Shown here one piece after another: positions 42,276 to 42,475 of a stretch of DNA of 43,478 bases. Source of the stretch: Prevotella sp. (GTDB taxonomy: Bacteria; Bacteroidota; Bacteroidia; Bacteroidales; Dysgonomonadaceae). The first letter of the stretch is position 1. The number at the start of each line of letters is the position of its first letter. A program made the translations under genes and the position numbers. Location: assembly GCA_031273295.1 (NCBI GenBank), contig JAISSD010000005.1, positions 1-43,478 on the forward strand, in the 5' to 3' direction. The notes beneath the pieces were generated by a model. The model made no database searches. It had not been told where the DNA came from and worked only from the letters and a program-made list of their open reading frames with translations.

Positions 42276-42475
42276 GCGCTACTATTCTCTTACGCATCGA
42301 ACGGAGCCGCCGTACGACCGGCCGCTGCCGTTGTTGAGGTTCACGGAGCCGCCGCTAGCGATGCTCAGGCGGTACGCGTCCGTCTCGTTGCGGGCTGATG
42401 ACGACCAGTACAAGCCGAAGAAGCCTACTTGGGTCAGCGTGCCGTAGAGGGTGCTCCCGGAAGCGGGAAATGACG
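42276..42475 (-). other. Candidate DGR variable region VR3
   Basis: SSSARNETDAYRLSIASGGSVNLNNGSGRSYGGSVRCVRE with NNC-rich codons; GAATAGTAGCGC at 42276-42287. Confidence 0.5.

Follow-up and report, generated by a model that had tools for sequence, protein, structure and literature searches.

A variable region at the edge of a Prevotella sp. contig is probably a remote target of a DGR family with dispersed templates

In the canonical DGR (BPP-1 type, PMC3240598), the variable region (VR) is found at the 3' end of its gene, the template (TR) is A-rich and non-coding, a DGR-type RT and Avd are encoded in the genome, and a GC-rich inverted repeat stands just beyond the VR. VR3, the variable region of a Prevotella sp. 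analyzed here, largely shares this layout, its own downstream hairpin being weak, but does not have its TR and RT in cis, and the hairpins of its family have stems of 4-7 bp and loops of 3-5 bases that do not follow GRNA. As we propose here, a distant TR/RT serves several remote surface or CLec targets in Treponema denticola and in cyanobacteria, including some "suspicious" targets with excess mutations (PMC4891356, PMC7517822). Thiohalocapsa PB-PSB1 likewise harbors multiple DGR loci, degenerate RT-less loci with proposed trans activity, and MITE-like repeats nearby (PMC10907252). The scale differs: two to seven targets per strain were described in T. denticola (PMC4891356), 76 remote targets in 21 cyanobacterial genomes (PMC7517822), and nine loci with fourteen diversified targets in PB-PSB1 (PMC10907252), whereas this single genome contains about ten TRs and at least 150 matches, VR3 included, to a 64-position profile of the variable domain, a figure that takes in a dozen or so templates and some contig-end fragments and is not a count of target genes. 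Of the matches listed, 81 belong to frames at least 300 aa long. Compared with PB-PSB1, RT-less TRs are here the commonest TR form, and the targets are fimbrillin-like. We consider it probable that VR3 forms the variable 3' end of a gene for a fimbrillin-like surface protein, and that the DGR family of this genome wrote it, as a remote target, by mutagenic retrohoming.

The window analyzed (43,478 nucleotides) is the entire contig C287 of a draft genome of 4.17 Mb, which comprises 312 contigs and has an estimated completeness of 98% with 2.5% contamination. At its right edge, the open frame of the target gene P0001 (42282-43478, minus strand) encodes the C-terminal 398 aa of a protein whose 5' coding end is lost at the contig end. 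A sequence-only reading had drawn attention to a string of NNC-rich codons at the end of this gene, and the string is present, as an exact match, at 42303-42395 of the minus strand, within that frame. Third-position C amounts to 57% in the last 75 codons versus 33% elsewhere in the gene, and the A content falls from 25% in the body to 19% in the same codons, so the NNC-rich tail exceeds the gene-wide composition. VR3 itself (42288-42473, minus strand), homologous to the TR family of the genome by a profile match (E=1.8e-22) and by TR alignments, lies at the 3' terminus of the gene's coding sequence and contains codons of AAC origin.

A 729-aa lipoprotein-like protein encoded on contig C49 shares 41% identity with P0001 over nearly the whole 398 aa (E=2e-64), and its N-terminus reads, by eye, as a lipoprotein signal. 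This protein and two more full-length paralogs match Mfa_like_1 (fimbrillin-like, PF13149) above the cut-off, and from the C49 paralog we infer the missing N-terminus of P0001. Pfam and NCBIfam searches with P0001 and VR3 gave only sub-threshold FISUMP/Lcl_C matches, below the curated cut-offs. Judging from these comparisons, P0001 most likely belongs to the fimbrillin-like surface proteins and ends in a FISUMP-like variable domain. It resembles the Mfa_like_1/FISUMP proteins of Bacteroidales in the N-terminal fimbrillin-like domain, seen in the paralogs, and in a C-terminal FISUMP/Lcl_C-like domain ending in VRCVRE, and differs from them in its low profile scores and in a tail that is template-like at the DNA level. 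In a test for the C-type lectin fold, two AlphaFold models of the domain (VR1 alone, and with ten relatives) had pLDDT values of 28 and 36, a very low confidence, and a PDB sequence search with the VR domain gave no significant match. No DNA relatives of VR3 were found in 40 related genomes, and no protein relatives were confirmed in a collection of genome contigs from which the genome's own records had been left out.

Profile and homology searches found no TR or RT within the window. Elsewhere in the genome, searches with RVT_1 and an RT protein query revealed four full DGR-type RT ORFs (C41, C152, C154, C68), all with the motifs IGNLTSQ and YGRYVDDF, and about ten partial or remnant RTs, three of them large C-terminal fragments that stop at contig ends. 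The RT ORFs score above the cut-off of PF00078 and match PHROG 1423 (E=1.8e-88), and were classed as DGR RTs by motif, TR neighbour and Avd. The Avd, a 115-aa protein encoded on C68, was recognized by PF22296 (bAvd; 51.8 bits against a cut-off of 40) and by a PHROG match, its score with the NCBIfam model DivGenRetAVD being below the cut-off of that model. RT, TR, Avd gene and target gene lie together at the C68 locus, where 16 mismatches separate VR from TR over 194 positions and the TR has an A at 13 of them; this ordinary DGR serves as a positive control. The C-terminal RT fragments or remnants at C97:5294-5473 and on C258, C51, C84, C38 and C227, some of them inside contigs, point to repeated DGR gain and loss. 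Tandem VR-only cassettes without gene bodies, which might be silent donors, lie beside the DGR RTs on C154 (L039) and C152 (L040), and three Alistipes DGR loci (L126, L127, L129) have similar rows of short VR ORFs.

By the sequence-only reading, an empty genome-wide template search would have told against its proposal. With the non-coding C167 sequence as query, the search returned about ten A-rich TR copies (C167, C121, C95, C49, C261, C160, C57, C289, C204, C203), containing 28-33% A and 84-88% alike across their aligned parts, along with dozens of A-poor copies within genes. Searches by tblastn found no RT in the stretches covered on either side of these TRs. Downstream, where the C68 locus has its RT, the contigs run on past the TRs, so on that side the absence is not due to an assembly cut; upstream, several contigs are cut. 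Some of the genes found downstream resemble, by eye and without a profile, serC, dnaN, a clpC-like gene and nagB. A target gene lies immediately upstream of five TRs (C49, C261, C121, C289, C204), and a broken Avd is retained at C121. Most TRs of this family are thus without an RT in cis.

VR3 shares 65-74% identity with the TRs of this family. Against the C167 TR, 26 of 50-51 A positions are changed and 18-19 of 103-106 non-A positions; a codon alignment to the TR, made by eye, gives 30/57 and 23/123, respectively (Fisher 6e-6). In the same alignment, the third C is retained in 13 of the 17 TR AAC codons that are changed in VR3, where the usage of the same gene predicts 37% (P=3e-4). The earlier claim that the variable residues are reachable from AAC through changes at A therefore describes 13 of these 17 codons and fails for the other four (ACG, CAA, TTG and GCT). 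Non-A divergence is 11-24% from the ten TRs (median about 19; 7/65 for C57, 10/66 for C121, 18/103 for C167) and 18-31% from 11 other VRs (median about 26), two ranges whose margins overlap through two short alignments, one with a VR (C261, 10/54) and one with a TR (C204, 13/55). VR3 also mismatches 27-68% of the A's of the other VRs, used as a control, so the A-mismatch rate alone is no proof. Only 8 of 182 VR3 positions are explained by none of nine TRs, which favours the template family but is a loose test, because an A in any TR explains anything. As read from these alignments, the TR signal is the combination of more A's in the TRs at the variable codons, lower non-A divergence and third-base retention, and the data are consistent with the writing of VR3 from a C167-type template family.

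The likeness to templates could in principle be plain protein homology, VR3 being the tail of an ordinary FISUMP-type surface protein that has no DGR history. The domain does occur without DGRs, since most congeners lack a full DGR RT and still carry 0-5 copies (among 24 congeners, the same profile gave 0-5 matches each, except for G018, with 38). We regard this explanation as very improbable, however, in view of the retained third-base C, the presence of A at the variable codons of the template family, and a downstream element that VR3 shares with close TR/VR pairs. As the sequence-only reading held, VR3 is related to VR1, and it is very probably a genuine variable region of DGR origin.

For DGRs, at least 75% of TR/VR mismatches typically fall at template A (PMC8144416), a proportion reached by the C68 pair in cis (13/16) and by a VR on C256 compared with the C289 TR (13/14). 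Unlike the BPP-1 type, VR3 has just 58% of its mismatches at A with C167 (26/44) and 71% with C57 (17/24 over 102 bases), short of 75% in both cases. None of the TRs found is thus the immediate parent of VR3, although templates as such do exist in the genome. Therefore, either this draft of 312 contigs lacks the last template, or VR3 has drifted in the time after it was last converted.

Directly past the stop codon, VR3 has the hairpin GCGC-TATCG-GCGC (42267-42279, minus strand), a short version of the VR-downstream hairpin of the family. It is followed by the conserved motif ATTCGATTCATTTGATTTATT (42244-42264, minus strand), identified by sequence and alignment, which many VR genes have and which occurs once in the window, and, past the gene, by a terminator-like inverted repeat, CCTTCCC...GGGAAGG (42221-42243, minus strand), with similar elements after other VR genes. 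The post-stop element common to many VR genes consists of AGAGAATAGTAGCGCC-loop-GGCGC and then ATTCGATTCATTTGATTTATT; in VR3 it spans 42244-42279, and about 45 bases of the downstream element are shared with a VR on C152. In the alignment, the element and its motif are absent from the 3' flanks of the TRs. In a set of 21 hairpin copies, 87% of the cells are paired and a single pair is compensatory; covariation is not clearly above shuffles. Strong copies fold much better than shuffles (z -3.5 to -3.7), whereas the 4-bp stem of VR3 alone does not (z -0.5), so the support for the VR3 hairpin is its conservation across the 21 VR copies. In BPP-1, a hairpin at the equivalent place is needed for efficient retrohoming (PMC3240598). 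By the mechanism that we propose, an RT encoded elsewhere would copy TR RNA, misreading A, and the resulting cDNA would replace the end of the VR3 gene, steered by TR/VR homology and by the hairpin just beyond the stop codon. Both the retrohoming of VR3 and its trans nature we infer from these features.

Further along lies the dispersed repeat AAATCCTTTAATCCTTTAAATCGTGTTCAGAC (42163-42194, plus strand; by alignment). The same repeat end, AAATCGTGTTC(A/T)GAC, is joined directly to five TRs elsewhere at their 5' ends (C167, C121, C95, C49, C261) and also lies beside VR3, and four other TRs (C160, C57, C289, C204) have a different 5' junction in common. These shared junctions suggest that the dispersal of the TRs may be linked to repeats.

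Two more variable regions are present in the window. VR1 (909-1109, plus strand; alignment and profile) has as its nearest template the C154 pair, with 15 of 34 A and 22 of 119 non-A positions changed, and VR2 (26078-26257, minus strand; alignment and profile), the variable region of an Mfa2/FimA-like protein, is nearest to the template of the C41 DGR (A 19/42, non-A 30/142). VR1 and VR3 do share a framework, as had been noticed from their codons (compared with each other alone, they are 61% identical across 227 columns, gaps included, at E=3e-9), along with many non-A differences. A single TR for both was rejected on account of these differences, which the sequence-only reading had itself named as evidence against it; the best TRs are the C154 pair for VR1 and the C167/C261/C57 family for VR3. 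The three regions are homologous, each with a different best template lineage (C154, C41 and C167-C261-C57, respectively).

Pairs of remote VRs and TRs that differ almost only at A imply action in trans, as far as alignments can indicate. Between the C256 VR and the C289 TR there are 14 mismatches in 121 positions, all but one at A, and no TR was found beside this VR in the stretch examined. In the congener G018, a TR adjoining the RT differs from its VR in cis at 25/70 A and 3/135 non-A positions, from a remote VR on another contig at 29/70 and 4/135, and from a farther-diverged remote VR, similar in this to VR3, at 31/66 and 18/133. The C256/C289 pair and the G018 series thus show, in two species, that targets can be remote and that their match to a TR declines by degrees. 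A second, different DGR of G018 (C70:1-4469, L257) has two near-identical VR/TR-like copies (YWSSTEYSGT...) preceding the RT. Trans activity was argued earlier for PB-PSB1 (PMC10907252), T. denticola (PMC4891356) and cyanobacteria (PMC7517822).

Such graded series bear on the present state of VR3. It may be a fossil, formerly rewritten by a DGR and now untargeted, template and VR having drifted apart; we hold the chances of this to be only a little short of even. Its non-A divergence of 11-24% to every TR agrees with this, and the VRs of the same genome form a series from about 1% to 30% non-A divergence, with a like series in G018 that includes even an RT-adjacent VR at 23/133; several RTs, moreover, are present solely as C-terminal remnants. 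On the other hand, VR3 keeps its downstream hairpin and motif, its reading frame is open, and the draft probably lacks some TRs, given how many RTs and VRs are located at contig ends. Rather more tentatively, VR3 could be the active target of such a missing TR. RT pieces start at the ends of five contigs (C84, C38, C104, C108, C310), the assembly having apparently been interrupted by repeats at RTs and VRs, and other remote VRs are near-perfect at non-A positions against a distant TR; this reading is weakened by the lack of a matching TR among those found and by the 4 of 17 changed AAC codons that are not NNC.

The best-matching TR differs from part to part of VR3. A mosaic VR3 might thus have been produced by gene conversion among VR copies or cassettes instead of direct retrohoming, given the more than 100 related copies in the genome, including the VR-only cassettes beside RTs. 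We think this unlikely, as at non-A sites VR3 is on the whole farther from the tested VRs than from the TRs.

Returning to VR3 as a probable remote target, the genome-wide arrangement of TRs and VRs is more interesting than VR3 itself. The chances appear evenly balanced that the ten or so mostly RT-less TRs, dispersed beside housekeeping genes and often joined to repeats, form with a few RTs a trans-acting DGR network that rewrites dozens of the more than 100 surface genes with the same domain, VR3 included. Such a network is testable in this genome and in the congener G018, which has 38 domain matches and in which one TR differs from a remote target at hardly any positions other than A. Lone VR genes in draft genomes cannot be matched to templates from their neighbourhood alone. 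If RT-less templates feed many remote genes, one enzyme set could diversify an entire repertoire of surface proteins, and the templates could spread and evolve on their own.
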